Assembly (NCBI RefSeq): GCF_017654485.1
Contig: NZ_CP061092.1
Span: 62,001 to 126,000 of the forward strand
Direction: 5' to 3'
Length of the DNA stretch: 64,000 nt
From: Roseomonas marmotae
GTDB lineage: Bacteria; Pseudomonadota; Alphaproteobacteria; Acetobacterales; Acetobacteraceae
The notes beneath the pieces are model-generated. The model searched no databases, was not told the DNA's origin, and saw nothing but the letters and a program-made list of their open reading frames with translations. A program made the translations under genes and the position numbers. Shown here one piece after another: positions 1,652-17,006 of the stretch. Within the stretch, counting starts at the first letter, position 1, and each line of letters opens with the position of its first letter.

Positions 1652-1740
1652 CTTTCTCAATTAAACGTTTAAAAACAACAGATTTCTGAAATACTTCAAT
1701 TAGAAATTTCGTATGCATCCGGCGAGCACCGCGGTCCTGC

Positions 1741-1983
1741 CTATTTGGTATCGCCGGGCTGAGGAGGGGCTTTCCCCGCTACCCGTTCATCCTCGATGAT
1801 CTGTTTCAGGTTATCGATGCCGTCCTGGGTGAATGCGGTCACGCCATCCTCGCCGACGCCGTAGACGTGCAGGCAGCCGTCTTCGGGGAACATGTCGATG
1901 GAAAGGTCGTGCAGCCAGTCTTCGTCCTCACCGAGCAGGGCGGCGACATGGCCGATCGTGAATACGGCCGAGATGGCAGCCAC
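1741..1983 (-). CDS. IS66 accessory ORF, acidic 80-residue protein
   Basis: A GTG at 1983 begins one base after the tnpC stop, giving an 80-residue acidic protein containing AALLGEDEDWLHDLSIDMF and GVGEDGVTAFTQDGI. It lies inside the element's inverted repeats, so it is IS cargo or a fourth IS66 gene rather than a host gene. I recall similar small ORFs beside other alphaproteobacterial IS66 copies, but no function is known to me. A longer reading from 2112 would run through tnpC and is unlikely. Confidence 0.6.
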   Translation of the reverse strand: MAAISAVFTIGHVAALLGEDEDWLHDLSIDMFPEDGCLHVYGVGEDGVTAFTQDGIDNLKQIIEDERVAGKAPPQPGDTK

Positions 1984-1984
1984 C

Positions 1985-3634
1985 TCAGGCTGCCTGGTCG
2001 CGCCGCGCCTGGCGGGCCTGCCAGTTCCAGGGCAGCAGCTCGTCGAGCTTGCTGGCCGGGTGCTCTGCGATTCGGTCCAGCACATCGGCCAGCCAGGCCT
2101 GGGGGTCGACATCGTTCAGCTTGGCGGTGACGATCAGCGAGTACATTGCCGCGGCACGCTGTCCCCCGCGGTCCGAACCTGCGAACAGCCATGACTTTCT
2201 GCCCAGGGCGATACCGCGCAGGGCGCGCTCGGCCGCGTTGTTCGACAGGCATATCCGGCCGTCGTCGAGAAAGCGGGTGAATGCCACCCAGCGCTTGAGC
2301 ATGTAGTCCATGGCGCGCGCCAGGTCGTTCGTGCGTGACAGCCTCGCACGCTGTTCGCGCATCCAGAGCTCGAGATCGGCCGCCAGGGGGGCGCTCAACG
2401 TCTGTCTTACGGCACGGCGCCGCTCGGCACTCTCGCCGTTGATGTCACGCTCGATATCGAACAGGGCGTCGATCCGCCGAACCGCCTCCAAAGCGATGGG
2501 CGAGATCACCCCGGGCGACTTGCCCGCGGCAACGCGCCGGGCGTTCTGCGCCAGATCCGCCAGCGCAAAGAACGGCCGCCGTGCATGCACCCAGCAGGCC
2601 GCCTCCAGGATCGGTCCCGGCTGGCGATTGGCCTCGTAGAGCTTGCCATAACCGCTATAGGCGTCGGCCTGAAACAGCCCGGCATAGTTAGCCAGATGCG
2701 CCTGCGGATGCGTGCCGCCGCGATCGCGCGAGTAGTAGAACATGGCCGCCGGCGCCGCCGTGCCGCCAAATGGCCGATCGTCGCGCACATAGACCCAACA
2801 TCGCCCCGTGTCGGTCTTGCCGCTGGCCAGCACCGGCACGGTCGTATCGTCGCCGTGCAGACGCCCAGCGGCCAGGACATGCGCCTCGAGACGCTGCGAC
2901 AGGGGCGACAGCACCGCGCAGCAGGCCCCCACTTGGTCGGCCAGGGTCGAGAGGCTGAGCGGTACGCTCTCCCTGGCGTAGCGCTCGGCCTGGCGGTTCA
3001 GTGGCTGGTGCTGGCCGAACTTCTCGAACAGCACCATCGCCAGCAGGTTGGGGCCGGCCCAGCCGCGCGCAATCACATGGAACGGCGCCGGCGCCTGGCT
3101 CACCTTCTCGCAGGCCCGGCAGGAGAACTTCTCCCGCACGTGCTGGATGACCTTCCAGCTGCGCGGGATCACCTCCAAGGTCTCGGTGATATCCTCGCCC
3201 AGTTTGCGCAGCCGCGCGCTACCGCAGCACAGGCAGGTGGTGGGCGCGGGCTCGACCACGCGCTCGCGCGGCAGATGGGCGGGAAACGGCTGGCGTGCCG
3301 GGCGCCTGCGGGTGAAGGGTGCAACATCCGTGGTCCGCGCGGCCGCTTGCTCGGCAGCCATCTCGTCCGCGGTCGCGGAGCTCTCCAGTTCATCGAACCT
3401 CAGGGCCAACTGATCGAGCAGCCGCGCGCTGCGCTCCGACCGCTGGCCATAGAGTTGATGCCGCAGCTTGGCGATCTGCAGCTGCTGGTGTGCGATCATG
3501 GCCTGGTCATCGGATGCCCGGGCAGTGGCAATCGCCAGATCCGCCTCAATCTGCAGGGCGTGCGCCGTCGCTGACAGCAGCGCCGCCTTTAGCGCATCGA
3601 TATCGTCCGGCAGGGCATCGGAGGGTCTGACCAC
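1985..3634 (-). CDS. tnpC: IS66 transposase TnpC
   Basis: This is the DDE transposase of IS66, which with TnpA and TnpB moves the element. The usual order is visible: an N-terminal helical region with LRHQLYGQRSERS, a zinc-finger-like CLCCGSARLRKLGEDITE with a second Cys pair (CRACEKV), the catalytic core with RLHGDDTTVPVL and FQADAYSGYGKLYE, and the C-terminal NNAAERALRGIALGRKSWLF motif. The GTG at 3634 gives 549 residues, normal for the family. The open frame extends upstream to 3856 but there overlaps tnpB, so the nearer start was chosen. Confidence 0.9.
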   Translation of the reverse strand: MVRPSDALPDDIDALKAALLSATAHALQIEADLAIATARASDDQAMIAHQQLQIAKLRHQLYGQRSERSARLLDQLALRFDELESSATADEMAAEQAAARTTDVAPFTRRRPARQPFPAHLPRERVVEPAPTTCLCCGSARLRKLGEDITETLEVIPRSWKVIQHVREKFSCRACEKVSQAPAPFHVIARGWAGPNLLAMVLFEKFGQHQPLNRQAERYARESVPLSLSTLADQVGACCAVLSPLSQRLEAHVLAAGRLHGDDTTVPVLASGKTDTGRCWVYVRDDRPFGGTAAPAAMFYYSRDRGGTHPQAHLANYAGLFQADAYSGYGKLYEANRQPGPILEAACWVHARRPFFALADLAQNARRVAAGKSPGVISPIALEAVRRIDALFDIERDINGESAERRRAVRQTLSAPLAADLELWMREQRARLSRTNDLARAMDYMLKRWVAFTRFLDDGRICLSNNAAERALRGIALGRKSWLFAGSDRGGQRAAAMYSLIVTAKLNDVDPQAWLADVLDRIAEHPASKLDELLPWNWQARQARRDQAA

Positions 3635-3692
3635 GGCGAGGATGGATTTACAAAATCCCACCGCCTGCCTCTGAAAACTGCGCCGCCAACCA

Positions 3693-4040
3693 TCACCCAG
3701 CGCAAACTGGCCGGAAGGTGTGGCGCGGGTTCCGCCAGTCGATGCCGTCGAGCATGTAGCCCAACTGAGCGGCGGAAATCCCCACCACCCCGTCGGTTGG
3801 CGAGGGCCACAACAAACGACCCTTCTCCAACCGCTTGGCGTAGAGCGACATGCCAATGCCGTCGTGCCAGACGATCTTTATCAGGTCGCCTCGGCGGCCC
3901 CGGAAAACGTAGAGATCGCCGGCATGAGGGTCACGCCCGAGCGCCTGCTGTACCTGCAGCGCCAGGCCGTTCATGCCGCGCCGCATGTCCGTATGGCCCA
4001 CCGCCAGCCAGACCCGGACACCAGAGGAAACCGGGATCAT
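3693..4040 (-). CDS. tnpB: IS66 accessory protein TnpB (Orf2 family)
   Basis: The 115-residue product starts MIPVSSGVRVWLAVGHTDMR and contains GDLYVFRGRRGDLIKIVWHDG, the signature of the IS66 Orf2 (TnpB) family. Its ATG at 4040 overlaps the tnpA stop by four bases (ATGA), the translational coupling typical of IS66. TnpB is needed for IS66 transposition, though its biochemical role is not settled. Length and frame are intact. Confidence 0.92.
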   Translation of the reverse strand: MIPVSSGVRVWLAVGHTDMRRGMNGLALQVQQALGRDPHAGDLYVFRGRRGDLIKIVWHDGIGMSLYAKRLEKGRLLWPSPTDGVVGISAAQLGYMLDGIDWRNPRHTFRPVCAG

Positions 4041-4432
4041 CCGCGCAATGCCGCCATTACGCGCCGCAACGCGGTGGAGCTGATCGCCTCGCTGACGCGG
4101 ATGACCGTGCCGTCCGGCGGGGCTATTTCGATCCGGCCGGCGGCGATTGTGTCGAGCACCGCCGGTGCAGCCGCCGGTACCACATCGACCTTGGAGGACG
4201 GCGCCGGCAGATCCGTCGTGACCTGCAGCGGCATGAACATGGGGGCAGGCTCGGCCACCAGCATTCCCTGGCGCGCCTGCTTGCGCCAAGCCCACAGCAC
4301 GCTGCGGCTGACCTCGTGCTGGCGTGCCACTACGGCAAAGCACGCCCCGGGACGTTCAGCCTCCGCCACGATCCGGAGCTTGTCCTCCACCCGCCATTGC
4401 CGCCGCCGCTCGACGCCGCTGATGATCTCCAT
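4037..4432 (-). CDS. tnpA: IS66 TnpA (helix-turn-helix, Orf1 family)
   Basis: The 131-residue protein has an N-terminal helix-turn-helix (WRVEDKLRIVAEAE...VARQHEVSRSVLWAWRKQ), a Pro/Ala linker, and a C-terminal segment IEIAPPDGTVIRVSEAISSTALRRVMAAL typical of IS66 TnpA. It is the first gene of the element, reading inward from the right inverted repeat, and is coupled to tnpB. Confidence 0.9.
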   Translation of the reverse strand: MEIISGVERRRQWRVEDKLRIVAEAERPGACFAVVARQHEVSRSVLWAWRKQARQGMLVAEPAPMFMPLQVTTDLPAPSSKVDVVPAAAPAVLDTIAAGRIEIAPPDGTVIRVSEAISSTALRRVMAALRG

Positions 4433-4784
4433 GCTCCAAACCGCCCCCGTCCTTAACGACGCTCCTACGAGCGTCGATAAGATCAGAAGACAGATTTGGC
4501 CCCCTGCCAGAAGGCGGCCGTCACCGGAGGGCTACGAAATTTCTGAATGAAAACTTTTGGTCCGGATGATTACCAAGTCCGCGAGCTTCAAGAAAGCTAC
4601 GCACCCGGCGCCACGAGACCCACCGCCACTGCCACATAAATATTGCCGGTGAAGTCATCTCTATCAGTCGAGCAGGAGATGGCGTGATCATGACCACCCA
4701 TCGTTACACGCCGCGGTACCCACTGAGGATGCCAAGGACATCATGCCGCATGGGGCAATCGCCTGGGCTTCGGCCTGGCCTGGC

Positions 4785-5672
4785 CTAATTCGCGTAGCGG
4801 CGGGTCATGCTGGCGCAGAAGGCCGCGAATTCGTCGATGACCTGCGGCGGGCTGGTATGGTGTGGCGCAATGCCGCGATGCTCCGGCGTGAAGCAGAAGG
4901 TTATGGTGACGTCGAAATCCTGCAGAGCCGTCATCTGCCGGTCGAACCAGCCCAGCGCACCAGGGCGGAAGCTGTCGGCCCAGGAGATGCCGGTACGCAG
5001 GTGCCTGACGCCCAGCCGCTTCAGCCAGGCTACGGCATCATCCAGCCGGTGATCGTGGTAATGGAACCACTGGCAGATGCCCATCTCAGGCGTATGTCCG
5101 GCGAACTGCTCCAGCGCTGGCTTAGGCGACCCGTCCTCCCGCAACAGTCCCATATAGAAGTGCCGGTAGTAGGAAGAGCCCTCTGCCTCGCGGTGCCGCG
5201 TTGTCGCCTCCCAGCTGCTCGGCAGGTCATAGAGGCTGTACCAGAGGATACGCGGGGCCAGACCCTTCAGCAGCCTGGACGTCTTGTTAACGCCCCAGGC
5301 TTGCACTTCCTCCGAACCGAAGGAGGAGACGCCGACCTCGGAAACCCAGACCGGCAGATCCGTCACTGCCTTGATCTCGTTCAGCTTGGCCGGCCATTGG
5401 TCGATCGGCCAAAGGTTCCAGTCGAGCGGGAACCCATGCACGGCGACCGCGTCCATCTGCGCCAGCACGCCACGCTGCTCCATCTTCATAATGAAGACAG
5501 GGTCGATAGGGGAGATGCCACCCAGGACCCTGGTGATACGGGAGTTCTCGGCACGGATGGCCTCGCCCGCCAGCCGCGCGGTGTCCGCGAAGATGGACCA
5601 GTCCGGGTCGATCTCCGGGTCCCAGTGCGACTTGTTATTAGGCTCGTTCCAGATCATCGCGGCTTTCATCAT
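4785..5672 (-). CDS. clan-A (GH39-like) glycosidase in apparently circularly permuted order
   Basis: The 295-residue protein begins MMKAAMIWNEPNN, with the acid/base motif NEP at Glu10, and has a second catalytic-type glutamate in VWVSEVG (Glu112). In clan-A TIM barrels these lie at the ends of strands 4 and 7. The parts normally preceding strand 4 are at the C-terminus instead: GICQWFHY (about 198-205), GVRHLRTGISW (221-231), DVTITFCFTPEHRG (254-267) and a helix ending MTRRYAN. The ATG overlaps the last base of the methyltransferase stop, so the gene is complete. No signal peptide is seen, so it is probably cytoplasmic. It is last in a four-gene operon with inositol-phosphate synthase; substrate unknown. 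Confidence 0.75.
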   Translation of the reverse strand: MMKAAMIWNEPNNKSHWDPEIDPDWSIFADTARLAGEAIRAENSRITRVLGGISPIDPVFIMKMEQRGVLAQMDAVAVHGFPLDWNLWPIDQWPAKLNEIKAVTDLPVWVSEVGVSSFGSEEVQAWGVNKTSRLLKGLAPRILWYSLYDLPSSWEATTRHREAEGSSYYRHFYMGLLREDGSPKPALEQFAGHTPEMGICQWFHYHDHRLDDAVAWLKRLGVRHLRTGISWADSFRPGALGWFDRQMTALQDFDVTITFCFTPEHRGIAPHHTSPPQVIDEFAAFCASMTRRYAN

Positions 5673-6433
5673 CAGCCGGGGGTCCTCGCAGGATAAACGG
5701 CGGCGGCACCGCTGGCCGGCATGGCGCGGCGACAGAGATAGACCTCGGGATCGGGGTTCTGGAGGATCTGGAATCCGCTGTTTCGCAGCATCGCCTCGGC
5801 GCAGGCACGGTTCGGCACCCACCAGTTGGTCGAATCCCCGGCGTAGCGATGCTCGATGAACTGCATGCGAGGAAGGTCGGGACGCTCGAACGGCGCAGTG
5901 TCGGTGAAGGCGTAGTTCTCCGCAACGGGCCCCACCTCAGCGCTACCGCGCTGCATGGACTGGAAGAGCAGCAGGTCGCGCGCCACATGCTCGTGGATCA
6001 GGTCCAGCGCCAGCAGCGGATGGCGCAGGTGATAGAGCACGCCCATGAAGATCACGAGGTCGAAGCGCTCCCCCAGCGCGCCAACATCATAGACTTCCAT
6101 CTGCCGGAATTCGATCTCCTGGTTCAGGATGCGGGCGGCGAAGCGAGCCTGTTCCAGATACCGCTCGTCATGATCGATGCCGAGTACTCGCGCCGCGCCG
6201 CGCCGCTTCATCTCCAGCGCATAGAAGCCGCCGTTGCAGCCGATATCGAGCACGCTCAATCCCGTCATGTCCTGCGGCAGGACATGGGAAAACTGTTGCC
6301 AGAACTGCCCGGGGTGATTGCCCAGCGGGTGGTCGGGTGCCGTCCAGACGCCGTTGAGATCGATGTTGTGGAACCATTTGCCCAGCGCGGCCACGCCGGC
6401 GCGCACCGCGTCCTGCGAAGAATGCACGGTCAT
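5672..6433 (-). CDS. CmoB-like SAM-dependent methyltransferase
   Basis: This 253-residue class I methyltransferase has motif I VLDIGCNGGFYALEM (about residues 61-75), the acidic loop GIDHDERYLEQA, and FDLVIFMGVLYHLRHPLLAL, which resembles the tRNA wobble-uridine carboxymethyl/methyl transferases (CmoB, DUF1698). The conserved NWWVPN segment near the C-terminus also fits that group. Because it is embedded in a sugar-nucleotide and glycosyltransferase cluster, a small-molecule or glycan acceptor is more likely than tRNA. The ATG at 6433 overlaps the phosphatase stop and its own stop overlaps the glycosidase start, so translation is coupled. Confidence 0.82.
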   Translation of the reverse strand: MTVHSSQDAVRAGVAALGKWFHNIDLNGVWTAPDHPLGNHPGQFWQQFSHVLPQDMTGLSVLDIGCNGGFYALEMKRRGAARVLGIDHDERYLEQARFAARILNQEIEFRQMEVYDVGALGERFDLVIFMGVLYHLRHPLLALDLIHEHVARDLLLFQSMQRGSAEVGPVAENYAFTDTAPFERPDLPRMQFIEHRYAGDSTNWWVPNRACAEAMLRNSGFQILQNPDPEVYLCRRAMPASGAAAVYPARTPG

Positions 6434-7071
6434 GCCGGCTCTCCCTTTTCCATTGCCACATGGCCATTGGCGGCGAGATGCGCCACATCGTTCAAGCCCA
6501 GAAGCTTGCCGCCTCCTGGCCAGAGCGCCAGGGTGCTGACCGAGGCCGGGCTGACCTCCAGCCGCTCATAAGCCTGCAGCGGCAGGCTCAGGAGATGCAG
6601 AACCGCCGCGCGAATGATCTCGGCATGGCTGATCAGGGCGACGCGCCCCTCCGGGTGCCGCGCCTGAAGGCCTTTCAGCAGCGCGACGACGCGCTGCCGC
6701 ACCGCCGACATCGCCTCACCGCCCGGCGCCACGGCATGGTCGCGGTCGCTGTTCCACGCCCGCCAGCGTGGATCGGTCTCCAGCACCGTGAAGCCCAGCC
6801 CGGTCCATGCGCCGAAATCAACCTCTTCGGCTTCGGGGGCAGGGACCGGCTCCGGTCCGCCCGGTTGCGCGATGGCCGCGGCCGTCTCCCGGCAGCGTTG
6901 CAATGGGCTGGTATAAAGGGCGTCGAGCGTCCCTGGCGGGAAGCGGCCGGCCAGCCGGGCGGCCTGCCAGCGCCCGTGCTGGCCGAGCGGGACTCCGGGC
7001 ATCCTGCCGCAGAGGAGGTCGCCTACGCGGTCATGCGCGGCATGGCGCAGCAGGAACAGGGTCAGAGCCAT
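6430..7071 (-). CDS. histidine phosphatase family protein
   Basis: The 213-residue protein carries the phosphoglycerate-mutase-type motif LLRHAAHDR with His10 as expected nucleophile, an SPLQRCRETA segment, an acid region EEVDFGAWTG, and a second histidine in VALISHAE (His149). The usual RHG triplet is RHA here. The family removes phosphate from small molecules and sugars. Position directly after inositol-3-phosphate synthase suggests dephosphorylation of inositol phosphate or a derivative, which is inference. The start at 7071 lies 10 bases after the synthase stop. Confidence 0.85.
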   Translation of the reverse strand: MALTLFLLRHAAHDRVGDLLCGRMPGVPLGQHGRWQAARLAGRFPPGTLDALYTSPLQRCRETAAAIAQPGGPEPVPAPEAEEVDFGAWTGLGFTVLETDPRWRAWNSDRDHAVAPGGEAMSAVRQRVVALLKGLQARHPEGRVALISHAEIIRAAVLHLLSLPLQAYERLEVSPASVSTLALWPGGGKLLGLNDVAHLAANGHVAMEKGEPA

Positions 7072-7081
7072 CGCCGCGGCG

Positions 7082-8164
7082 TCAGTCCAACCCCTGGATG
7101 AAGCGCATGGTGCGCTCCCGTGCCTCGTTATCGGTGAACTGCTGGGGCGGCGACTTCATGAAATAGCTGGAAGGACCTGTCAGCGCGCCGCCGATGCCAC
7201 GGTCGAGCGCCAGCTTGGCGCAGCGCACCGCGTCGATGACGATGCCGGCGGAATTCGGCGAGTCCCAGACCTCAAGCTTCAGCTCCAGGTTCAGCGGCAT
7301 GCCACCGAAGCTGGTACCCTCGATGCGGATCTGCGCCCATTTCCGGTCGGTCAGCCAGGGCACGAAGTCGCTCGGGCCAACATGGACATTGTCGGCTGGC
7401 AGCGGGGTGTCGAACTGACTGGTCACGGCCTGCGTCTTGGAGATCTTCTTGGACTCCAGGCGTTCGCGCTCCAGCATGTTCTTGAAATCGGCATTGCCGC
7501 CGAAATTCAGTTGGTAGGTGCGGTCGATGCGCACGCCGCGCTCGCGGAAGAGGTTCGCCAGCACGCGGTGCACGATGGTGGCACCGACCTGACTTTTGAT
7601 ATCATCGCCGATGATCGGCAGCCCGCGCTCGGAAAAGCGCCGCTGCCAGGACGGATCGGAAGCGATGAAGACGGGGATGCAGTTGACGAAGGCGCAACCG
7701 GCCTTCAGCGCCTGCTCGGCATAGAACTCCGAGGCATGCTGCGAGCCCACCGGCAGATAGGACACCAGGACATCCGTCCGGCTGCGGCGCAGCACCTCCG
7801 CCACATCGGTCACGGGGTCTTCGGCTTCCTCGATCTCCTGCCGCAGATAGTGGCCCAGGCCATCCAGCGTCGGGCCGCGATGCACCGTCACGCCGCTTCG
7901 CCGCAGTTCGGCGAAAATCTGCGTGTTGTTCGGCGGTGCCGCCAGGGCCTCCGAGAGATCCCGCCCGACCTTGGCCGCCGTGACATCAAAGGCGGAAGCG
8001 ATCTCGATATCGCGCACGCGGTAGCCACCGAGATCGGCATGCATCAGCCCCGGCGGAGGCTCATTCGCTGCGGCATCCCGGTAATAGGTGAGCCCCTGGA
8101 CGAAGGAGGAAGCGCAGTTGCCGACGCCGACCACACCGACGCGAAGTGATGCTGAACCCGACAC
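7082..8164 (-). CDS. ino1: inositol-3-phosphate synthase
   Basis: The 360-residue enzyme belongs to the myo-inositol-1-phosphate synthase family, which converts glucose-6-phosphate to inositol-3-phosphate using NAD. It opens with the dinucleotide-binding segment [17 protein letters not shown], and contains [25 protein letters not shown] and [12 protein letters not shown], characteristic of the actinobacterial/archaeal-type short synthases. It is the first gene of the minus-strand operon and starts at the divergent promoter region 8165-8600. It would supply inositol to the adjacent glycosyltransferases. Confidence 0.92.
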
Positions 8165-8600: not shown

Positions 8601-9713
8601 ATGAAAGAAACCATCCTGATCACCGGTGGTGCGGGTTTCATTGGCAGTCATGTGGCACGGGCTCTTCTGGAGCGAGGGTACAAGGTCAGGGTCATCGATA
8701 GTCTGATTGATCAGGTTCATAATGGCCGTGGCCCGACTCTGCTGGCCCCCGAGGTCGAGTTCATCAAGGGTGACGTGCGGGACGAGGGCGCCTTGTCCCA
8801 GGCGCTGGAAGGTGTTGGCAGCGTCATTCACCTCGCCGCCGAAGTCGGTGTCGGGCAGAGCATGTATGCGATCGACCGTTATGTGTCGGTCAATGAACTC
8901 GGCACCGCGACGCTGTTCCAGCAACTGATCCGCCGCCCCGTGCGCCGCGTCGTCGTCGCCTCCTCGATGAGCATCTATGGCGAGGGGCTCTATCGCGACG
9001 CCGATGGCCGCCTCCATGAGGATGTGCTGCGCGCCCCGCGGCGCGATGCCTCGGCGGGGTGGGATCCGCTCGACCCTCTCGGGCGGCCGCTGCTGCCGGT
9101 GCCGACGCCGGAAGGCAAACGACCGCAGCTCGCCTCCGTCTATGCCATCAATAAGTATATGCAGGAGCGGATGACGCTGACCGTGGCGCCCGCCTATGGA
9201 ATGGAAGGCGTCGCCCTGCGGCTCTGGAATGCCTATGGGCCCGGGCAGGCGCTCTCCAACCCCTATACAGGTGTGCTGGCCATCTTCGCCGCCCGGCTGC
9301 AGAACCGGCAGCGGCCGATGGTCTTCGAGGATGGGCAGCAACGGCGCGACTTCGTTCATGTCGGCGATGTGGCGCGAGCCTTCATGCTCGCGCTGGAGCA
9401 TCCCCGCGCGGCAGGGCAGGTCTATAATGTCGCCAGCGGCCAGGACCGCACGGTCGAGGAGGTGGCGCTGGCCCTCGCGGCGGCCATGGGCTGCCCGGAC
9501 CTGACACCCGAGATCACCGGCAAGGCCCGCAGCGGCGATATCCGTCACAACATCCCGGACATCACGCGCATTCAGAGCGAGCTGGGCTTCACCGTCGCGC
9601 GCGATTTCCAGAAGGACCTCGCCGAACTGGCGGAATGGGTGGCTGCGCAGCAGGCCGAGGACCGCGTGCTTCAGGCCCGACGCGAGCTGGAGATGCGGGG
9701 GCTGGTCGCGTGA
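8601..9713 (+). CDS. NAD-dependent epimerase/dehydratase (extended SDR)
   Basis: The 370-residue protein starts MKETILITGGAGFIGSH, the extended-SDR Rossmann motif, and carries the catalytic pair YAINK (YxxxK) with an upstream SSMSIYG serine region. RDFVHVGDVARAF and the C-terminal NVASGQDRTVEEVA match NDP-sugar 4-epimerases and dehydratases. It probably makes a nucleotide sugar for the glycosyltransferases that follow. The precise reaction cannot be read from the sequence. Its stop overlaps the GTG of the next gene (GTGA). Confidence 0.85.
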   Translation: MKETILITGGAGFIGSHVARALLERGYKVRVIDSLIDQVHNGRGPTLLAPEVEFIKGDVRDEGALSQALEGVGSVIHLAAEVGVGQSMYAIDRYVSVNELGTATLFQQLIRRPVRRVVVASSMSIYGEGLYRDADGRLHEDVLRAPRRDASAGWDPLDPLGRPLLPVPTPEGKRPQLASVYAINKYMQERMTLTVAPAYGMEGVALRLWNAYGPGQALSNPYTGVLAIFAARLQNRQRPMVFEDGQQRRDFVHVGDVARAFMLALEHPRAAGQVYNVASGQDRTVEEVALALAAAMGCPDLTPEITGKARSGDIRHNIPDITRIQSELGFTVARDFQKDLAELAEWVAAQQAEDRVLQARRELEMRGLVA

Positions 9714-10807
9714 GCGGGGCCGGCGGCGGCATGGGAAGGCCTGCTCTCACGGGGCGGCGCCCCGTCCTGGTCACAGGCGGCGCCGGCTTCATCGGCTCCA
9801 ACCTCGCCGACCGGCTGGCGCAGCAGGGGCATGACGTGCTGGTCTTCGATGCCCTGGCTCGCCCTGGCGTCGAGGCCAACTTGGCCTGGCTGCAACAGCG
9901 CCATCCCGCCCGCATTTCCACGATGGTCGCCGATATCCGCGATGCCGCCGCCGTGGAGGAGGCGCTGCGCGACGCACAGGTCGTCTTCCATCTGGCGGGT
10001 CAGGTGGCGGTGACCACCAGCCTGGTGGCGCCGCAGGATGATTTCGACATCAACCTGCGCGGCACCTTCATGCTGCTGGAGGGGCTGCGGCGGCGCGGGG
10101 GCGGGGTACCGCTGGTCTTCGCCAGCACCAACAAGGTCTATGGCAATCTCGGCGATGTCGCGCTGGAGCAGGTCGGCGAATGCTATGTGCCGTCCGATCC
10201 GGCGGTCCGAGCTTCCGGCATCGGCGAGGCCCGGCCGCTCGATTTCCACACGCCCTATGGCTGCTCGAAGGGTGCGGCGGACCAGTATGTGCTGGATTTC
10301 GACCGCAGCTTCGGCGTGCCGACGGTCGTGCTGCGGATGAGCTGCATCTACGGCCAGCGCCAGATGGGAACCGAGGACCAGGGTTGGGTCGCGCATTTCC
10401 TGATCCGCGCCCTGAAGGGCGAGCCGATCAGCATCTTCGGCGATGGCCGCCAGGTGCGCGACGTGCTGCAGGTGGATGACGCGGTCAGGGCCTATCTGAA
10501 CGCCTGGGGCCGCATCGGCACGGTGCATGGCCGGGCCTTCAATCTCGGCGGCGGGCCCGGCAATGCCATCAGCCTGCGGCAGCTTGTCGCGGCGATCGAG
10601 GAACTGCTCGGCCGCCGGGTCGAGCTGCAATTTGCCGACTGGCGGGCAGGGGACCAGCGCTACTACGTCTCCGACACCCGCGCCACGCGGCTTGAGCTGG
10701 GGCTGGCGGAGCCGACATCCTGGCGCGCGGGCGTCGCGGCGCTGGCCCAGTGGCTGGAGAGGGAAGGGGGGCTGCAGGCCGCGACCAAGCTGGAGGCCCT
10801 GACGTGA
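9710..10807 (+). CDS. NAD-dependent epimerase, CDP-paratose 2-epimerase-like SDR
   Basis: This extended SDR has VLVTGGAGFIGSNLADRL, STNKVYGN, a catalytic YGCSK motif and VLRMSCIYGQRQMGTEDQGW, which recalls CDP-paratose/tyvelose 2-epimerases (RfbE). The GTG at 9710 overlaps the preceding stop and gives 365 residues. An ATG at 9731 is the alternative. The frame is open upstream to 9635, but that part overlaps the previous gene and is Gly/Arg-rich shadow sequence. The gene is the second of a co-transcribed series and probably makes a second nucleotide sugar. Confidence 0.83.
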   Translation: MSGAGGGMGRPALTGRRPVLVTGGAGFIGSNLADRLAQQGHDVLVFDALARPGVEANLAWLQQRHPARISTMVADIRDAAAVEEALRDAQVVFHLAGQVAVTTSLVAPQDDFDINLRGTFMLLEGLRRRGGGVPLVFASTNKVYGNLGDVALEQVGECYVPSDPAVRASGIGEARPLDFHTPYGCSKGAADQYVLDFDRSFGVPTVVLRMSCIYGQRQMGTEDQGWVAHFLIRALKGEPISIFGDGRQVRDVLQVDDAVRAYLNAWGRIGTVHGRAFNLGGGPGNAISLRQLVAAIEELLGRRVELQFADWRAGDQRYYVSDTRATRLELGLAEPTSWRAGVAALAQWLEREGGLQAATKLEALT

Positions 10808-10858: not shown

Positions 10859-11989
10859 ATGTCGGCGCCCTCGACTGAACCCGCCGGACAGCCGCGGATC
10901 TTCCTGACCACCGACGCTGTCGGCGGCGTCTGGACCTATGCCCTGGACCTGGCGCGGGGATCGTCGGCGCGTGGTATGGCCATCACCCTGGCCGTGCTGG
11001 GTCCGCCTGCCAGCCCCGCGCAGATGGCCGAGGCAGGCTCCATTCCCGGCTGCCGTCTGCTGCCGACAGGACTCCCGCTGGACTGGGCGGGCGCCGATGC
11101 CGCCACTCTGCGGGCCGCCGGACGGGCCCTGGCCGCTCTGGCGGCCGAGGAGGGCGCGGAGCTGGTGCATCTGAACAGCCCGGCCCTGGCGGCCCATGCC
11201 GGCTTCGCCGCGCCGCTGGTCATCGGCTGCCATTCCTGCGTCGCCACCTGGTGGCATACCGTGCGCGGTACCGCGCTGCCGCCCGACTTTGCCTGGCAGA
11301 GAGATCTGGTGGCCGCGGGCTATCACGCCGCGAAGCTTCTGGTGGCGCCGAGCGCGTCTTTCGCGCGGATGACAGAGCGGCTTTACGACCTGCCGGTGCC
11401 GCCGCGCGTCGTCCATAACGGCCGCGCTGCCCGTAGTCCCACGCCGGCGGCAGCCTCGCGCGAGGGCATCCTCGCCGCGGGCCGGCTCTGGGACGAGGCG
11501 AAGAACATCGCCCTGCTGGACCGCATCGCGCCCCGCCTCGCCATACCGATCGAGGTGGCGGGGCCGCTGGTCGCCCCGCATGGCGGTACGGCCAGACTGA
11601 CGAAGCTGCGCCATCTCGGCCTGCTGGGCGCCGAGGAGATGGCCCACCGCTTCGCCGCCGCCGGCATCTTCGTCTCGCCCGCCCGCTACGAGCCCTTCGG
11701 CCTGGCGGTGCTGGAGGCGGCGCAGGCCGGCTGCGCCCTGCTGCTCTCGGATATCCCCTCCTTCCGCGAGATCTGGGGCGATGCCGCCGATTACGCGGCC
11801 CCGGATGACGAGGCCGGGTTCCTGGAGGGGCTGCACCGCCTCTCGGCCGATGCGGCCCTGCGCGCCCGGCGTGGCGCCGCGGCGCAGCAGCGCGCCGCCC
11901 GCTACAGCGGGGACGCCATGGTGGAGGGCATGATCGCGCTCTACCGCGACATGCTGCCGCAACGCATTCGCCTGGAGGCCGCCGCGTGA
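10859..11989 (+). CDS. glycosyltransferase family 4
   Basis: The 376-residue GT-B protein begins IFLTTDAVGGVWTYALDLAR, the GT4 N-terminal glycine-rich loop. Its C-terminal domain has GILAAGRLWDEAKN and the retaining EX7E motif region SPARYEPFGLAVLEAAQAG. It transfers a sugar from a nucleotide donor to an unknown acceptor in the cytoplasm. It follows the epimerases after a 51-base gap and overlaps the first CgeB-type gene by a GTGA junction. Confidence 0.87.
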   Translation: MSAPSTEPAGQPRIFLTTDAVGGVWTYALDLARGSSARGMAITLAVLGPPASPAQMAEAGSIPGCRLLPTGLPLDWAGADAATLRAAGRALAALAAEEGAELVHLNSPALAAHAGFAAPLVIGCHSCVATWWHTVRGTALPPDFAWQRDLVAAGYHAAKLLVAPSASFARMTERLYDLPVPPRVVHNGRAARSPTPAAASREGILAAGRLWDEAKNIALLDRIAPRLAIPIEVAGPLVAPHGGTARLTKLRHLGLLGAEEMAHRFAAAGIFVSPARYEPFGLAVLEAAQAGCALLLSDIPSFREIWGDAADYAAPDDEAGFLEGLHRLSADAALRARRGAAAQQRAARYSGDAMVEGMIALYRDMLPQRIRLEAAA

Positions 11990-13098
11990 AGCTGGTCTAT
12001 TTTACGCATTCCCTCGGTTCCTGCTGGAACCATGGCAACGCGCATTTCCTGCGCGGGGTGCTGCGCGAATTCATCCATCGCGGTGACGAAGTCCTGGCCA
12101 TGGAGCCAGCCGGCGCCTGGAGCCTGGCGAATCTACTGCAGGACCACGGGCCCGCCGGGTTGGAAGCCTATCATTCCGCCTATCCCGAGTTGAGTTCGCG
12201 GCGCTTCGACAACTTCACGGCCTGCGAGGCCGCGGTCGAGGATGCCGATCTCGTCATCGTGCATGAATGGAACGAGCCGGCGCTGGTCGAGGCCCTGGGC
12301 AGGCTGCGCCGGCAGGGCGGGCGCTTCACGCTCCTGTTCCACGATACCCATCACCGCGCTGTCTCCGACCCCGGTGCCATCCGCGCCTTCGACCTCGATG
12401 GTTATGACGGCGTGCTGGCCTTCGGCGAGGCGCTGGCGGAAGTCTATCGCCGCTGGGGCTGGGGCGGACGTGTCTGGACCTGGCATGAGGCCGCCGATAC
12501 CCGCCATTTCCGCCCGCCGGCCCAGGAAGGCCCGCGCGAGGGATTGGTCTGGATCGGCAACTGGGGCGATGGCGAGCGCAGCGAGGAAATTGAATCCATG
12601 CTGCTGCGCCCGGCGCGGGATGCCGGCCTGCCGCTCGACATTCATGGGGTACGCTATCCCGAGGAAGCGCTGGTCACCCTGCGTGGCTATGGCGTGGCTT
12701 TCAAGGGGTGGTTGCCGAATGCCCGCGCCCCTGAGGTCTTCGCGCGGCATCTGGCCACGGTGCATGTGCCCCGGCGCTTCTATGTGACGATGCTGCCGGG
12801 CATCCCGACCATCCGTGTCTTCGAGGCGCTGGCCTGCGGCATTCCGCTGCTCTCCGCCCCTTGGCGGGACAGCGAGAATCTCTTCCGCCCTGGCGAGGAC
12901 TTCCTCTTCGCCGCCGACGATGCAGAAATGACTGCGCATCTGCGGGCCCTCCGGCACGATCCGGCGCTGCGCGCCTCGCTGGCCAGGAAGGGGCTGGAAA
13001 CCATCCGCAGCCGCCATAGCTGCGCGCACCGGATGCGGGAACTGCTGAACATTCTGGCCCAGCTGCGGCCCGGGGCCCTGGTGGAGACTGCCGCATGA
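11986..13098 (+). CDS. CgeB-family glycosyltransferase 1
   Basis: The 370-residue protein opens MKLVYFTHSLGSCWNHGNAHFLRG and ends with GIPTIRVFEALACGIPLLSAPW and LFRPGEDFL, the C-terminal GT-B donor-site pattern of CgeB-type proteins (glycosyltransferase family 1-like). CgeB was first known from Bacillus spore-coat maturation, but homologues occur widely in glycan clusters. The GTG start at 11986 overlaps the previous stop. It is the first of three adjacent paralogous genes. Confidence 0.82.
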   Translation: MKLVYFTHSLGSCWNHGNAHFLRGVLREFIHRGDEVLAMEPAGAWSLANLLQDHGPAGLEAYHSAYPELSSRRFDNFTACEAAVEDADLVIVHEWNEPALVEALGRLRRQGGRFTLLFHDTHHRAVSDPGAIRAFDLDGYDGVLAFGEALAEVYRRWGWGGRVWTWHEAADTRHFRPPAQEGPREGLVWIGNWGDGERSEEIESMLLRPARDAGLPLDIHGVRYPEEALVTLRGYGVAFKGWLPNARAPEVFARHLATVHVPRRFYVTMLPGIPTIRVFEALACGIPLLSAPWRDSENLFRPGEDFLFAADDAEMTAHLRALRHDPALRASLARKGLETIRSRHSCAHRMRELLNILAQLRPGALVETAA

Positions 13099-14198
13099 AG
13101 ATTGCCTTCTTTGGTTCCAGCCTGCTGTCCTCCTACTGGAACGGCGCGGCGACCTATTATCGCGGCCTGTTGCGGGATCTCGCCGGCCGTGGCTACGACA
13201 TCACCTTCTTCGAGCCCGATGCCTTCGACCGGCAGAAGCACCGCGATATCGAACCGCCGGACTGGGCACGCGTCGTCGTCTATGACGCGACGGAAGCGGC
13301 GCTGCGCGAGGTCATCTCTCGCGCGGCTGAAGCCGATGTGGTGGTGAAGGCGAGCGGCGTCGGCGTCTTCGATGAGGAATTGCTGGAAGGCGTGGTGCGC
13401 GCGGCGCGGCCCGGCGCCATCCGCATCTTCTGGGATGTCGATGCGCCGGCGACGCTGGCCGAGATCGCCGGTTCGCCCGAGCATGTATTGCGCCGCGTGC
13501 TGCCGAAGCTTGATTTCGTGCTGACCTATGGCGGCGGCCCGCCGGTGGTCGAGGCCTATACCGGCTTCGGCGCGCGGCGCTGCCTGCCCATCTACAATGC
13601 GCTGGACGCGGAGACGCATCACCCCGTCCCACGCGACCGCCGCTTCGCCGCCGACCTCGCTTTCCTGGGCAACCGGCTGCCGGACCGCGAGCAGCGTGTC
13701 GAGACCTTCTTCCTGGATGCCGCCGACCGGCTGCCGGGGCGGGACTTCCTGATCGGCGGCAATGGCTGGGAGAGCAAGCCGATGCCGCCGAATGTGCGGC
13801 ATATCGGCCATGTCTATACACGCGACCACAACGCCTTCAACTGCTCGCCCCTCGCGGTGCTGAACATCGCCCGCGACAGCATGGCCTCCACCGGCTACTC
13901 GCCGGCCACCCGCGTCTTCGAGGCCTGCGGCGCGGGCGCCTGCCTGATGACCGATGCCTGGGTCGGTCTGGAGATGTTCCTGAAGGAAGGCGAGGAAGTG
14001 CTGGTGGCGCGCGACGGGCAGGACGTCGCCGAGCAGCTTGCGGCGCTGACCCCCATGCGCGCGCGTGCCATCGGCGAGGCCGGGCGCAGGCGCATCCTGG
14101 CGGGGCATACCTACGCCATTCGTGGCGCCGAGGTGGATGCGCTGCTGCGGCGCCAGGCCGAAGCCCTGCGCGATGGCGTGGCCGAGAGCGTCATGTGA
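13095..14198 (+). CDS. CgeB-family glycosyltransferase 2
   Basis: The 367-residue protein begins MKIAFFGSSLLSSYWNGAATYYRG, carries RIFWDVDAPATLAEI and LTYGGGPPVVEAY in the middle, and ends with GYSPATRVFEACGAGACLMTD and FLKEGEEVLVARD. The last two are the diagnostic CgeB C-terminal segments. ATGA coupling joins it to both neighbours. Its middle motifs are shared with the next gene (DIDTPVTLAKL, LSFTGGPTLDLL), so those two are closer to each other than to the first CgeB. Confidence 0.85.
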   Translation: MKIAFFGSSLLSSYWNGAATYYRGLLRDLAGRGYDITFFEPDAFDRQKHRDIEPPDWARVVVYDATEAALREVISRAAEADVVVKASGVGVFDEELLEGVVRAARPGAIRIFWDVDAPATLAEIAGSPEHVLRRVLPKLDFVLTYGGGPPVVEAYTGFGARRCLPIYNALDAETHHPVPRDRRFAADLAFLGNRLPDREQRVETFFLDAADRLPGRDFLIGGNGWESKPMPPNVRHIGHVYTRDHNAFNCSPLAVLNIARDSMASTGYSPATRVFEACGAGACLMTDAWVGLEMFLKEGEEVLVARDGQDVAEQLAALTPMRARAIGEAGRRRILAGHTYAIRGAEVDALLRRQAEALRDGVAESVM

Positions 14199-15364
14199 TG
14201 AAGGATGCGCCGCTCGACATCGTCGTACTCGGCCTTAGCCTCTCCTCCTCCTGGGGGAATGGCCATGCGACGACCTACCGCGCATTGCTGCGCTCGCTCG
14301 CGGCGCGCGGCCACCGCATCCTCTTCCTGGAACGCGACGTGCCTTGGTATGCCGCGCATCGCGACCTGCCGGAGCCGGATTTCTGCCGCCTCGCGCTCTA
14401 CCCGGATCTGGCCGCGCTGCGTGGCTGGTCCGATGCCGTCGCCCGGGCCGACGCGGTCATCGTCGGTTCCTATGTGCCGGAGGGTGTGGCCGTCGGCCGC
14501 TTCGTGCAGGAGACGGCGAGGGGCGTCACCGCCTTCTACGACATCGATACGCCCGTCACTCTGGCCAAGCTGCGGAACGGGGATACCGAATACCTCTCGC
14601 CGGAGCTGATCCCGGGCTACGACGTCTATCTCTCCTTCACCGGCGGGCCGACGCTCGACCTGCTGATGGAGTGTTATGGCTCGCCCGCCGCGCGGCCGCT
14701 CTACTGCTCGGTGGATGCCGGAGCTTACCGGCCCCGCGATGTCGGCTTCCGCTGGGATCTCAGCTATCTCGGCACCTATAGCTCCGACCGGCAACCGGTG
14801 CTGGAGCGGCTGCTGCTGGAGCCGGCGCGCCGCGCGCCGGAGCTGCGCTTCGTCGTCGCCGGCCCGCAATATCCGGCCGATATCGTCTGGCCCGCCAATG
14901 TGGAACGGCTGGAGCATGTGTCCCCGTCGGACCACCCGGCCTTCTACAGCGCCAGCCGATACACCCTGAACGTTACGCGCGCCGACATGGTGCAGGCCGG
15001 CTACAGCCCGAGCGTGCGGCTCTTCGAGGCCGCCGCCTGCGGCACGCCGGTCATTTCCGATATCTGGGACGGGATCGAGACGGTGCTGAGACCAGGGCGG
15101 GAGATCGTCCTGGCCCGCGACGCCGGGGCGGTGCTGGCAGTACTTCGGGAGCAGGCCCCGACGGACCGCGACTGCATGGCCCGGGCGGCGCGCAGCCGCA
15201 TCCTGGCCGAGCACACCGCCGACCACCGCGCCGTGGAACTCGTGGCGCATCTGAACGAGGCATCGGCGCGCAGGTCCACGCCTTCTCCGCAGGGGGGCTG
15301 GTCCGTGGCTTCTGCCCGTGGCGTGCTCACAGCAAAGCAGGGGGAGCTCCATGAAGAAGGCTAG
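14198..15364 (+). CDS. CgeB-family glycosyltransferase 3
   Basis: The 388-residue protein shows the same order as its neighbour: a start with LGLSLSSSWGNGHATTYRALL, then FYDIDTPVTLAKL, YLSFTGGPTLDLLME, and the C-terminal GYSPSVRLFEAAACGTPVISDIWDG with LRPGREIVLARD. The ATG at 14198 shares its A with the preceding TGA. The last 30 residues are low-complexity, and the gene overlaps the start of the following SDR by 14 bases. Confidence 0.85.
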   Translation: MKDAPLDIVVLGLSLSSSWGNGHATTYRALLRSLAARGHRILFLERDVPWYAAHRDLPEPDFCRLALYPDLAALRGWSDAVARADAVIVGSYVPEGVAVGRFVQETARGVTAFYDIDTPVTLAKLRNGDTEYLSPELIPGYDVYLSFTGGPTLDLLMECYGSPAARPLYCSVDAGAYRPRDVGFRWDLSYLGTYSSDRQPVLERLLLEPARRAPELRFVVAGPQYPADIVWPANVERLEHVSPSDHPAFYSASRYTLNVTRADMVQAGYSPSVRLFEAAACGTPVISDIWDGIETVLRPGREIVLARDAGAVLAVLREQAPTDRDCMARAARSRILAEHTADHRAVELVAHLNEASARRSTPSPQGGWSVASARGVLTAKQGELHEEG

Positions 15365-16367
15365 GACGAAGCAAGTTCTCGTGGCTGGCGGAGCGGGCTT
15401 CCTGGGGTCGCATCTCTGCGAGGCGCTGCTGGCCGATGGCGCGCAGGTCTGGTGCCTGGACAATCTGCAGACCGGCCAGAGGCGCACGCTGCGGAAGCTG
15501 GAGAACGAGCCCCGCTTTACCTTCATCGAGGGCGATGTCATCGAGCCGGTTCCGGCCCGCCAGCTGCCACGGCAACTCGATCAGGTCTTCAACCTCGCCT
15601 GCGCCGCATCCCCGGTGCAGTATCAGGCGGACCCAGAGCACACGATGCTGACCAGCGTGCTCGGCACCCGCAACCTGCTGCGGCTGGCGGAGAAGCACGG
15701 CGCACGCTTCCTGCTGACCTCCACCAGCGAGGTCTATGGCGACCCGGAGATGCATCCGCAGGCCGAAAGTTACCGCGGCAATGTCAATTGCACCGGCCCC
15801 CGCGCCTGTTACGACGAGGGCAAGCGCGCCGCCGAGGCCCTGGCCTTCGACTTCCACCGTGCCAGCCGCGCCGAGGTGCGGGTGGCCCGCATCTTCAACA
15901 CCTATGGCCCGCGCATGCGGGCCGATGACGGGCGCGTCGTCTCCAATGTCATCACCCAGGCGCTGGATGGGGTGGATATCACCGTCTATGGCGATGGCAG
16001 CCAGACGCGCTCCTTCTGCTATGTCGATGACATGGTCGACGGATTGATGCGGCTGATGGGTTACGACGGCGAGCAACCCGGCCCCGTCAATATCGGCAAT
16101 CCCGTGGAGCTGACGGTCTCCGAACTGGTGCAGCAGGTGCTGGCCCTGACCGGCTCGCGCTCCTCCGTCATGTACATGCCGCTGCCGGAGGATGACCCGC
16201 GACGCCGCCGCCCTGATATCAGCCGCGCGACAAAGCTGCTCGGCTGGTCTCCGCGCACCCCGCTCTCCGCCGGGCTGCGGGCGACGGTGGAGTGGTTCTC
16301 GGTGGTGGAGGCCGAGGTGGAGCCGGTGCGGACCGATGTGCCCGCGGCGCGTGTCCCGGCGGGCTGA
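15351..16367 (+). CDS. UDP-glucuronate decarboxylase-type SDR
   Basis: The ATG at 15351 has a strong Shine-Dalgarno (GGGGGAG) and gives 338 residues starting with VLVAGGAGFLGSHLCEALL. It carries FNLACAASPVQYQ, STSEVYGDPEMHPQ, catalytic YDEGK and ARIFNTYGPRMRADDGRVVSN, close to UDP-xylose synthase (UXS) enzymes that convert UDP-glucuronate to UDP-xylose. The assignment is by motif resemblance. It would be the third nucleotide-sugar enzyme of the operon and points to a pentose in the product. Confidence 0.85.
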   Translation: MKKARTKQVLVAGGAGFLGSHLCEALLADGAQVWCLDNLQTGQRRTLRKLENEPRFTFIEGDVIEPVPARQLPRQLDQVFNLACAASPVQYQADPEHTMLTSVLGTRNLLRLAEKHGARFLLTSTSEVYGDPEMHPQAESYRGNVNCTGPRACYDEGKRAAEALAFDFHRASRAEVRVARIFNTYGPRMRADDGRVVSNVITQALDGVDITVYGDGSQTRSFCYVDDMVDGLMRLMGYDGEQPGPVNIGNPVELTVSELVQQVLALTGSRSSVMYMPLPEDDPRRRRPDISRATKLLGWSPRTPLSAGLRATVEWFSVVEAEVEPVRTDVPAARVPAG

Positions 16368-16436: not shown

Positions 16437-17006
16437 TTGGCCGAGATCGTAACGACCGAGGTGACGCATAGCCGCTGGTCGAGGCTGATGGTCGCGACGA
16501 TCCGCCTGCCGGACGGACAGGTGACGAAGCGCGACATCGAGGATCACGGCGAGGCGGCGGTGGTGCTGCCCTATGATCCGGAACGGCGGATGGCCATGCT
16601 GATCCGCCAGTTCCGCACGCCCCCTTTCTATGCCGCCGGCGACGGCATGATGCTGGAGCCCCCCGCCGGAAGGCTGGACGAGGCGGACCCGGAAGCCTGT
16701 GCCCGGCGCGAGGCGATGGAGGAGATCGGGCTGCGGCTGACGCGGCTGGAGCCGGTTGCCCGTGTCTGGACCATGCCGGCTCTCTCGACCGAGCGCGCCT
16801 GGATGTATCTCGCGCCCTATGCCCAAGGCGACCGCGTGGCGAGCGGCGGCGGGCTGGCGGAGGAGCACGAGGAGATCGAGGTGCTGGAGATGCCGCTGGC
16901 TGAACTGGCGGCCATGGCCGATGCCGGGACACTGACGGAGCTGAAGCTGCTTCTGCTGGTGCAGACGCTGCGCCTGCGCCATCCCGGGCTTTTCACGCCC
17001 GCCTGA
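16437..17006 (+). CDS. Nudix hydrolase (ADP-ribose/GDP-sugar pyrophosphatase type)
   Basis: The 189-residue protein starts at a TTG (16437) with GAGGGAGGA upstream. It contains MLIRQFRTPPFYAAGDGMMLEPPAGRLDEAD and RREAMEEIGL, the Nudix box with flanking residues typical of the ADP-ribose pyrophosphatase/NudK group. The box is about one residue shorter than the standard spacing between the first Gly and the RE pair. Such enzymes cleave nucleoside diphosphate sugars, so it may control the pool of donor sugars made by the operon. It is the last gene on this arm. Confidence 0.85.
   Translation: MAEIVTTEVTHSRWSRLMVATIRLPDGQVTKRDIEDHGEAAVVLPYDPERRMAMLIRQFRTPPFYAAGDGMMLEPPAGRLDEADPEACARREAMEEIGLRLTRLEPVARVWTMPALSTERAWMYLAPYAQGDRVASGGGLAEEHEEIEVLEMPLAELAAMADAGTLTELKLLLLVQTLRLRHPGLFTPA

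Follow-up and report, generated by a model that had tools for sequence, protein, structure and literature searches.

Can a glycosidase barrel be encoded starting from its middle? The question is raised by GHcp, a gene in a 64,000-nucleotide stretch of the Roseomonas marmotae genome (contig NZ_CP061092.1, positions 62,001 to 126,000 of the forward strand; hereafter the window). GHcp lies on the minus strand (4785-5672; ATG at 5672, stop codon at 4785-4787) and codes for 295 amino acids; its source genome holds a single match to it. A preliminary description had taken the product for a circularly permuted glycosidase, and the motifs on which it relied were readily found: the catalytic NEP motif is Asn9-Glu10-Pro11, and the C-terminus is MTRRYAN. 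As set out below, comparison with normal-order relatives, the gain in score upon rotation and a single predicted barrel agree, and the proposal that the chain runs through strands β4-β8 and then β1-β3 is well supported by sequence alignment and modeling. The rearrangement seems to be genuine, ancient and conserved.

The same description held that overlap with the upstream gene fixes the start of GHcp. The stop codon of the upstream methyltransferase gene does overlap the GHcp start, as read from the sequence, but the frame is open up to position 5822 (a 345-amino-acid open reading frame from a GTG), so that the overlap cannot fix the start. The assigned start is instead supported by homologues that share its Met, which is invariant in 22 aligned sequences, with residues preceding it in 2 of the 22.

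Strand order and catalytic residues of GHcp

Genome searches with GHcp gave full-length collinear matches and, in 11 other genomes (six, G531 and four more), the two parts of GHcp in the opposite order: the segment matching residues ~188-294 lies immediately upstream of that matching ~6-184, inside an open reading frame of roughly 670-1100 codons. Weak one-block matches in G277, G317, G425, G527, G615, G618 and G759 were excluded from this count. These normal-order relatives are glycosidase domains fused in front of an epimerase, and we built a profile from 61 of 120 such domains, chosen for a recognized epimerase start and the right domain length. Native GHcp matched the profile in two swapped blocks, residues 6-184 on positions 118-294 (100.5 bits) and residues 192-294 on positions 7-111 (45.9 bits). 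Rotation at residue 185, the best of 59 rotations, gave a single match over positions 8-294 (162.6 bits), and the whole-sequence score was 144.5 bits for native GHcp and 162.8 bits for the best rotation. Shuffled GHcp controls (n = 20) gave no match in 16 cases and at most 1.1 bits in 4. Identity between the permuted and fused normal-order forms was 34-38% in the β4-β8 block and 26-30% in the β1-β3 block.

The same behavior was seen against the PDB. A native GHcp profile found PslG of Pseudomonas aeruginosa in two swapped blocks (24.0 bits, E 1.8e-4), the rotated profile found it in one alignment (37.2 bits, E 1.8e-8), and so did the normal-order profile (45.6 bits, E 4.3e-11). Aligned separately, then, each part of GHcp matches a different, swapped part of both the normal-order relatives and PslG. 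The idea that moving the C-terminal segment to the front restores a standard GH39-like barrel is supported: on rotation, the two swapped blocks merge into one higher-scoring alignment.

AlphaFold predicted for GHcp one barrel of permuted order in a single domain, on the basis of 22 sequences, and for a normal-order relative the standard strand order, on the basis of 17. The fold predicted for GHcp is a (β/α)8 barrel, as in clan GH-A, and in the model residues 1-190 and 197-295 do not form separate folds; two separate folds were ruled out by the single-domain model together with the collinear conservation described below. In the alignments and the model, the new chain ends fall in the α3-β4 connection of the standard barrel, and the old C-terminus (α8) appears joined to the old N-terminus (β1) by a short linker, residues ~185-195. 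When the model of the normal-order relative was used as the query, Foldseek ranked PslG first.

In the GHcp model, Glu10 comes after the strand formed by residues 2-8 and Glu112 lies within strand 108-114. Both are present in all 118 permuted sequences (109 distinct, the window protein included), and of 224 normal-order domains 217 have the acid/base Glu and 223 the nucleophile Glu. The PslG alignment places Glu10 on Glu165 and Glu112 on Glu276, with a single offset of 26 fitting both; PMC11912335 identifies these PslG residues as the acid-base and the nucleophile, respectively. The signature of clan GH-A, an acid/base Glu after Asn at the end of β4 and a nucleophile Glu at the end of β7, is found in GHcp, and assignment to a clan-GH-A-type glycosidase is well supported by both alignment and model. 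Given the catalytic pair and what is known of the family, GHcp would be a retaining β-glycosidase or transglycosidase acting by double displacement. As to GH39 membership, PslG, the nearest relative of solved structure, belongs to GH39, but the curated family cut-offs are not reached: with native GHcp, rotated GHcp and P0049, no Pfam glycosidase family was found at its cut-off (the best was PF11790, whose cut-off is 21 bits, at 15.7 bits with native and 17.8 bits with rotated GHcp), nor was any in NCBIfam with GHcp, P0049 and P0089. In six of the 224 normal-order domains (P0273, P0279, P0287, P0288, P0294 and P0298), Lys replaces the acid/base Glu and the nucleophile is kept; these domains perhaps have a different chemistry or form a subfamily.

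At least 8,000 database proteins, the number of candidates scored, match GHcp at E 0.001 or better. The 120 matches listed, 289-330 residues long, align over 98-100% of the query with identities of 76-100%; those that have a name are mostly annotated in the database as "beta-xylosidase". Members of the permuted family are about 295-310 residues long. Homologues share the order of GHcp: a single collinear alignment spanning 270 residues or more was obtained at all 117 genome loci used, a figure that speaks of conservation and not of prevalence, since the loci were picked as best matches. Among the best 80 of 520 confirmed loci, 79 are from Alphaproteobacteria and one is from a gammaproteobacterium. 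The latter, Peristeroidobacter agariperforans (L145), has the permuted gene and most of the surrounding cluster, which hints at horizontal transfer.

A normal-order counterpart fused to EPI2

GHcp faces genes for two NAD-dependent epimerase/dehydratases, EPI1 and EPI2 (Table 1). In other genomes, the EPI2 orthologue carries the normal-order glycosidase domain at its N-terminus. Of the genomes checked for EPI2, all 38 that carry the permuted gene have it, as do all 13 that carry the normal-order domain; these counts combine two EPI2 searches with 15 genomes that those searches missed or did not cover. We fetched 12 regions and found the normal-order domain in 11, directly before EPI2 in every one; EPI1 was visible upstream of the fused domain in 10 of the 11, immediately so in 9. 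The twelfth, from G246, held no fused normal-order gene, only a 38-residue normal-order match that could not be extended to one, and the genome was counted as permuted only. None of the 12 regions contained a separate permuted gene. Conversely, the 80 permuted loci contained no separate normal-order domain, the 10 matches that reach past the permuted gene all overlapping GHcp. EPI2 was found at 48% identity or more in 53 of the 80 loci; two were cut by the locus edge, and in none of the 51 testable loci was a fused domain found in frame before EPI2 (best upstream E 0.036, in a two-sequence comparison). The permuted and the fused forms belong to the same cluster type.

A barrel strand opens the chain of GHcp, and the normal-order form is joined to a sugar epimerase; for these reasons, GHcp probably works in the cytoplasm. 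There its probable task is to trim or transfer sugar on an intermediate that the neighboring epimerases and glycosyltransferases produce.

A search for EPI2 independent of the glycosidase returned 36 genomes (13 of 278 in a class sample and 24 of 230 in an order sample, one being shared). Of these, 22 had only the permuted gene, 10 only the fused form, 2 both and 2 neither; the 15 genomes added for the EPI2 co-occurrence counts had been selected for the glycosidase and stand outside this tally. Strict exclusivity of the two forms was ruled out by G205 and G805, in which a search with the normal-order query showed both. In G805, the permuted gene is intact and the fused copy, an open frame (L195:8966-10950), has lost both catalytic Glu residues, the nucleophile being Gln and the acid/base position unaligned. 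The branch leading to this copy measures 3.65 changes per site.

History of the two forms and alternative explanations

The permuted glycosidase sequences, 13 of which were rotated and put in a tree with 44 normal-order ones, formed one clade (support of 95 in the Shimodaira-Hasegawa-like approximate likelihood ratio test, SH-aLRT; stem 1.29). An EPI2 tree was built from 123 rows, out of 180 before a filter at 80% identity, with the fetched fused loci retained. On this tree, the domain-less EPI2 associated with the permuted gene required five changes, three of them forced by supported branches, and two Devosia rows nested with a fused row at 95. Because its rows had been selected by way of the glycosidase, the tree is silent on how often a domain-less EPI2 occurs without the permuted gene.

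We suggest that the permuted form arose in a single event, probably by duplication followed by truncation. The free permuted gene would then have spread and assumed the role that the EPI2-fused normal-order domain had played, and this domain would have been lost more than once. That the permuted gene replaced the fused domain seems the most economical reading, because of the synteny, the small number of genomes with both forms and the decayed copy in G805. Taken as a whole, a free, permuted, retaining glycosidase of clan-GH-A type, probably cytoplasmic, that has replaced the fused domain is the best explanation, and one in which we have high confidence. In a more specific version, an untethered permuted copy would have repeatedly displaced the epimerase-fused copy, with the chain ends moved from the β1/α8 side, which serves for the fusion, to the α3-β4 side and G805 caught midway; for this, we judge the chances to be about even.

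Several observations weigh against this account. The permuted clade does not lie inside the alphaproteobacterial fused domains, its stem is long and deep nodes are weak, so that it need not descend from such a domain. The rarity of co-occurrence gives a Fisher p of 1.5e-5 when genomes are treated as independent; on the tree of the 36 genomes, the permuted-only label needs at least three changes, and there are only 2-3 independent pairs, too few for significance once kinship is considered. In G205 (L196:3-245), the fused copy beside the permuted gene is cut by the contig edge and its visible end keeps the nucleophile. Neither form was matched in two of the genomes with EPI2, G737 (L233) and G071 (L209), although in G071 the contig starts at the EPI2 gene and its edge cuts the test. 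As to the enzyme itself, the acid/base position is not Glu in 7 of the 224 normal-order domains. The predicted local distance difference test score (pLDDT) of the GHcp model falls below 50 at residues 12-15, 155-167 and 263-275, and both models were built on no more than the 22 and 17 sequences given above. Finally, when the permuted model was used in order-dependent structure searches, the matches listed (50 for Foldseek) were only generic TIM barrels, and PslG was not among them.

The same data can be read in other ways. Conceivably, the two forms diverged long ago as paralogues that act on different substrates, their near-exclusive distribution being a by-product of lineage history. The identity of about 26-38% between the forms, the long stem of the permuted clade, the two genomes with both forms and the scarcity of independent switches, too few for a test, would all suit this possibility. 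We nevertheless consider it rather unlikely, since both forms are partnered by EPI1, EPI2, a GT4 glycosyltransferase and CgeB, EPI2 accompanies either form in every genome counted (38/38 and 13/13), no fused domain occurs in any of the 51 testable permuted loci, and the fused copy has decayed in G805. The permuted order could also have arisen by another route. A normal-order gene may have been split in two and its pieces rejoined in the opposite order, in place of duplication and truncation; the cut between α3 and β4 is a clean boundary, and the two routes are indistinguishable from sequence. In the loci viewed, where no dedicated search for either was made, we noticed neither separate half-barrel genes nor tandem copies, and we regard the split route as unlikely.

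Alternatively, GHcp might have kept the barrel without being an enzyme and serve to bind or regulate the epimerases. Glycosidases that lack a leader are unusual in sugar-nucleotide clusters, no substrate is evident, and the fused form hints at a structural connection with EPI2. Retention of both Glu residues throughout the permuted sequences (118/118), and of the acid/base and the nucleophile in 217 and 223 of the 224 normal-order sequences, makes this distinctly improbable, as does the loss of both from the fused copy of G805, where an intact permuted copy exists. As an IS66 element adjoins GHcp, a frameshift, a misassembly or a fusion of unrelated fragments might be suspected. The 117 collinear loci, from many independent assemblies, the 120 matches listed and the single-domain model make any such origin vanishingly improbable, the collinear homologues ruling out an artefact or a fragment.

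The surrounding gene cluster

GHcp ends a run of four genes that also comprises MIPS, HisP and MT, and this run faces EPI1, EPI2, GT4 and a CgeB-like gene on the opposite strand (Table 1). Contig ends truncate some of the 80 loci in which neighbors were counted and so lower the counts. With identities of only about 24-34%, some matches to EPI1, EPI2 and CgeB are probably paralogues.

Table 1. Positions in the window of GHcp, its parts and its neighbors; counts refer to the best 80 loci, with matches at E 1e-15.
Feature	Position	Strand	Basis or loci matched
GHcp, predicted circularly permuted (β/α)8 glycosidase, 295 aa	4785..5672	-	sequence, homologues, rotation test, AlphaFold
GHcp residues 1-187, predicted β4-β8 and α4-α8 (second part of standard barrel)	5112..5672	-	
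GHcp residues 188-295, predicted linker, then β1-β3 and α1-α3 (first part of standard barrel)	4788..5111	-	
Glu10 codon, predicted acid/base	5643..5645	-	aligns with PslG Glu165
Glu112 codon, predicted nucleophile	5337..5339	-	aligns with PslG Glu276
MT, methyltransferase (Methyltransf_9/DUF1698-like), overlaps GHcp start	5672..6433	-	76/80
HisP, histidine phosphatase superfamily	6430..7071	-	75/80
MIPS, myo-inositol-1-phosphate synthase	7082..8164	-	76/80
EPI1, NAD-dependent epimerase/dehydratase	8601..9713	+	58/80
EPI2, NAD-dependent epimerase/dehydratase, standing alone here	9635..10807	+	68/80
GT4 glycosyltransferase	10859..11989	+	62/80
CgeB-like glycosyltransferase (PF13524)	11986..13098	+	64/80
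IS66 transposase	1985-3856		
IS66 Orf2-like	3693-4343		
IS66 helix-turn-helix (HTH) protein	4037-4432		
IS66 element inverted ends, 76% complementary	1695-1732 and 4514-4551		

The cluster of an inositol phosphate synthase, a phosphatase, a methyltransferase, epimerases and several glycosyltransferases suggests a glycoconjugate as the product, possibly, at a guess, one with methylated inositol. It has more than one layout among the loci (L067-L146): EPI1-EPI2-GT4-CgeB may be divergent from MIPS-HisP-MT-GHcp, or MT-GHcp may stand behind CgeB, as in L071, L073, L074 and L076. In the window, the cluster is extended by two more CgeB-like glycosyltransferase genes (13095-14198 and 14195-15364), followed by a third NAD-dependent epimerase (15318-16367) and a NUDIX protein (16437-17006). 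Shortly past it lies a gene for a PEP-CTERM motif protein (PF07589; 17477-18076); PEP-CTERM is linked to exopolysaccharide and would suit an exopolysaccharide-linked surface system. On the other side, an IS66-family element (1695-4551) ends ~230 bp from the GHcp stop codon, and a ParA/MipZ-like ATPase is encoded on the minus strand at 199-846.

Comparison with known systems

Our literature search, whose coverage left most subscription papers outside, found no permuted glycosidase of clan GH-A or GH39 and no GHcp cluster, and within the same coverage natural permutation of a glycosidase barrel was described for GH70 only. Transaldolase B and class I aldolase, TIM barrels that are not glycosidases, are related by a natural permutation. 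They appear as a TIM-barrel pair in a non-sequential alignment study (PMC2213659). The GH70 glucansucrases and GtfB, of clan GH-H, resemble GHcp in being naturally permuted (β/α)8 glycosidases; according to PMC9732880, they are permuted relative to GH13, with motif order II-III-IV-I, but they differ from GHcp in clan, in their α-glucan substrates and in being larger, multidomain enzymes.

PslG (CAZy GH39; PDB 4zn2, 5bx9 and 9g17) is the best PDB sequence match of GHcp, native or rotated. It differs from GHcp in its standard strand order and its length of about 414 residues, and structural comparison with the normal-order relative of GHcp gave 16-19% identity. PMC11912335 describes PslG as an endoglycosidase of the Psl exopolysaccharide, from a retaining family, that acts on the producer's own polysaccharide; it has a signal peptide and its mature form is periplasmic. 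Order-dependent tools do not reveal the permutation: PslG is absent from the 50 matches that Foldseek listed for the GHcp model, and comes first for the normal-order relative. The large, highly conserved permuted family goes, if named, mostly by "beta-xylosidase".

The closest relative that we have seen is the fused normal-order domain-epimerase (e.g., P0122), named "CDP-paratose 2-epimerase" by JGI and "NAD-dependent epimerase/dehydratase" or "SDR family" by NCBI. It is like GHcp in its position relative to EPI1, GT4 and CgeB, and differs in its standard strand order and its covalent link to EPI2, GHcp being a separate gene after the methyltransferase. Related bacteria carry both forms in the same cluster type, which makes it possible to ask directly whether function was kept, how the permutation affects folding and why a free permuted protein replaces a fused one.
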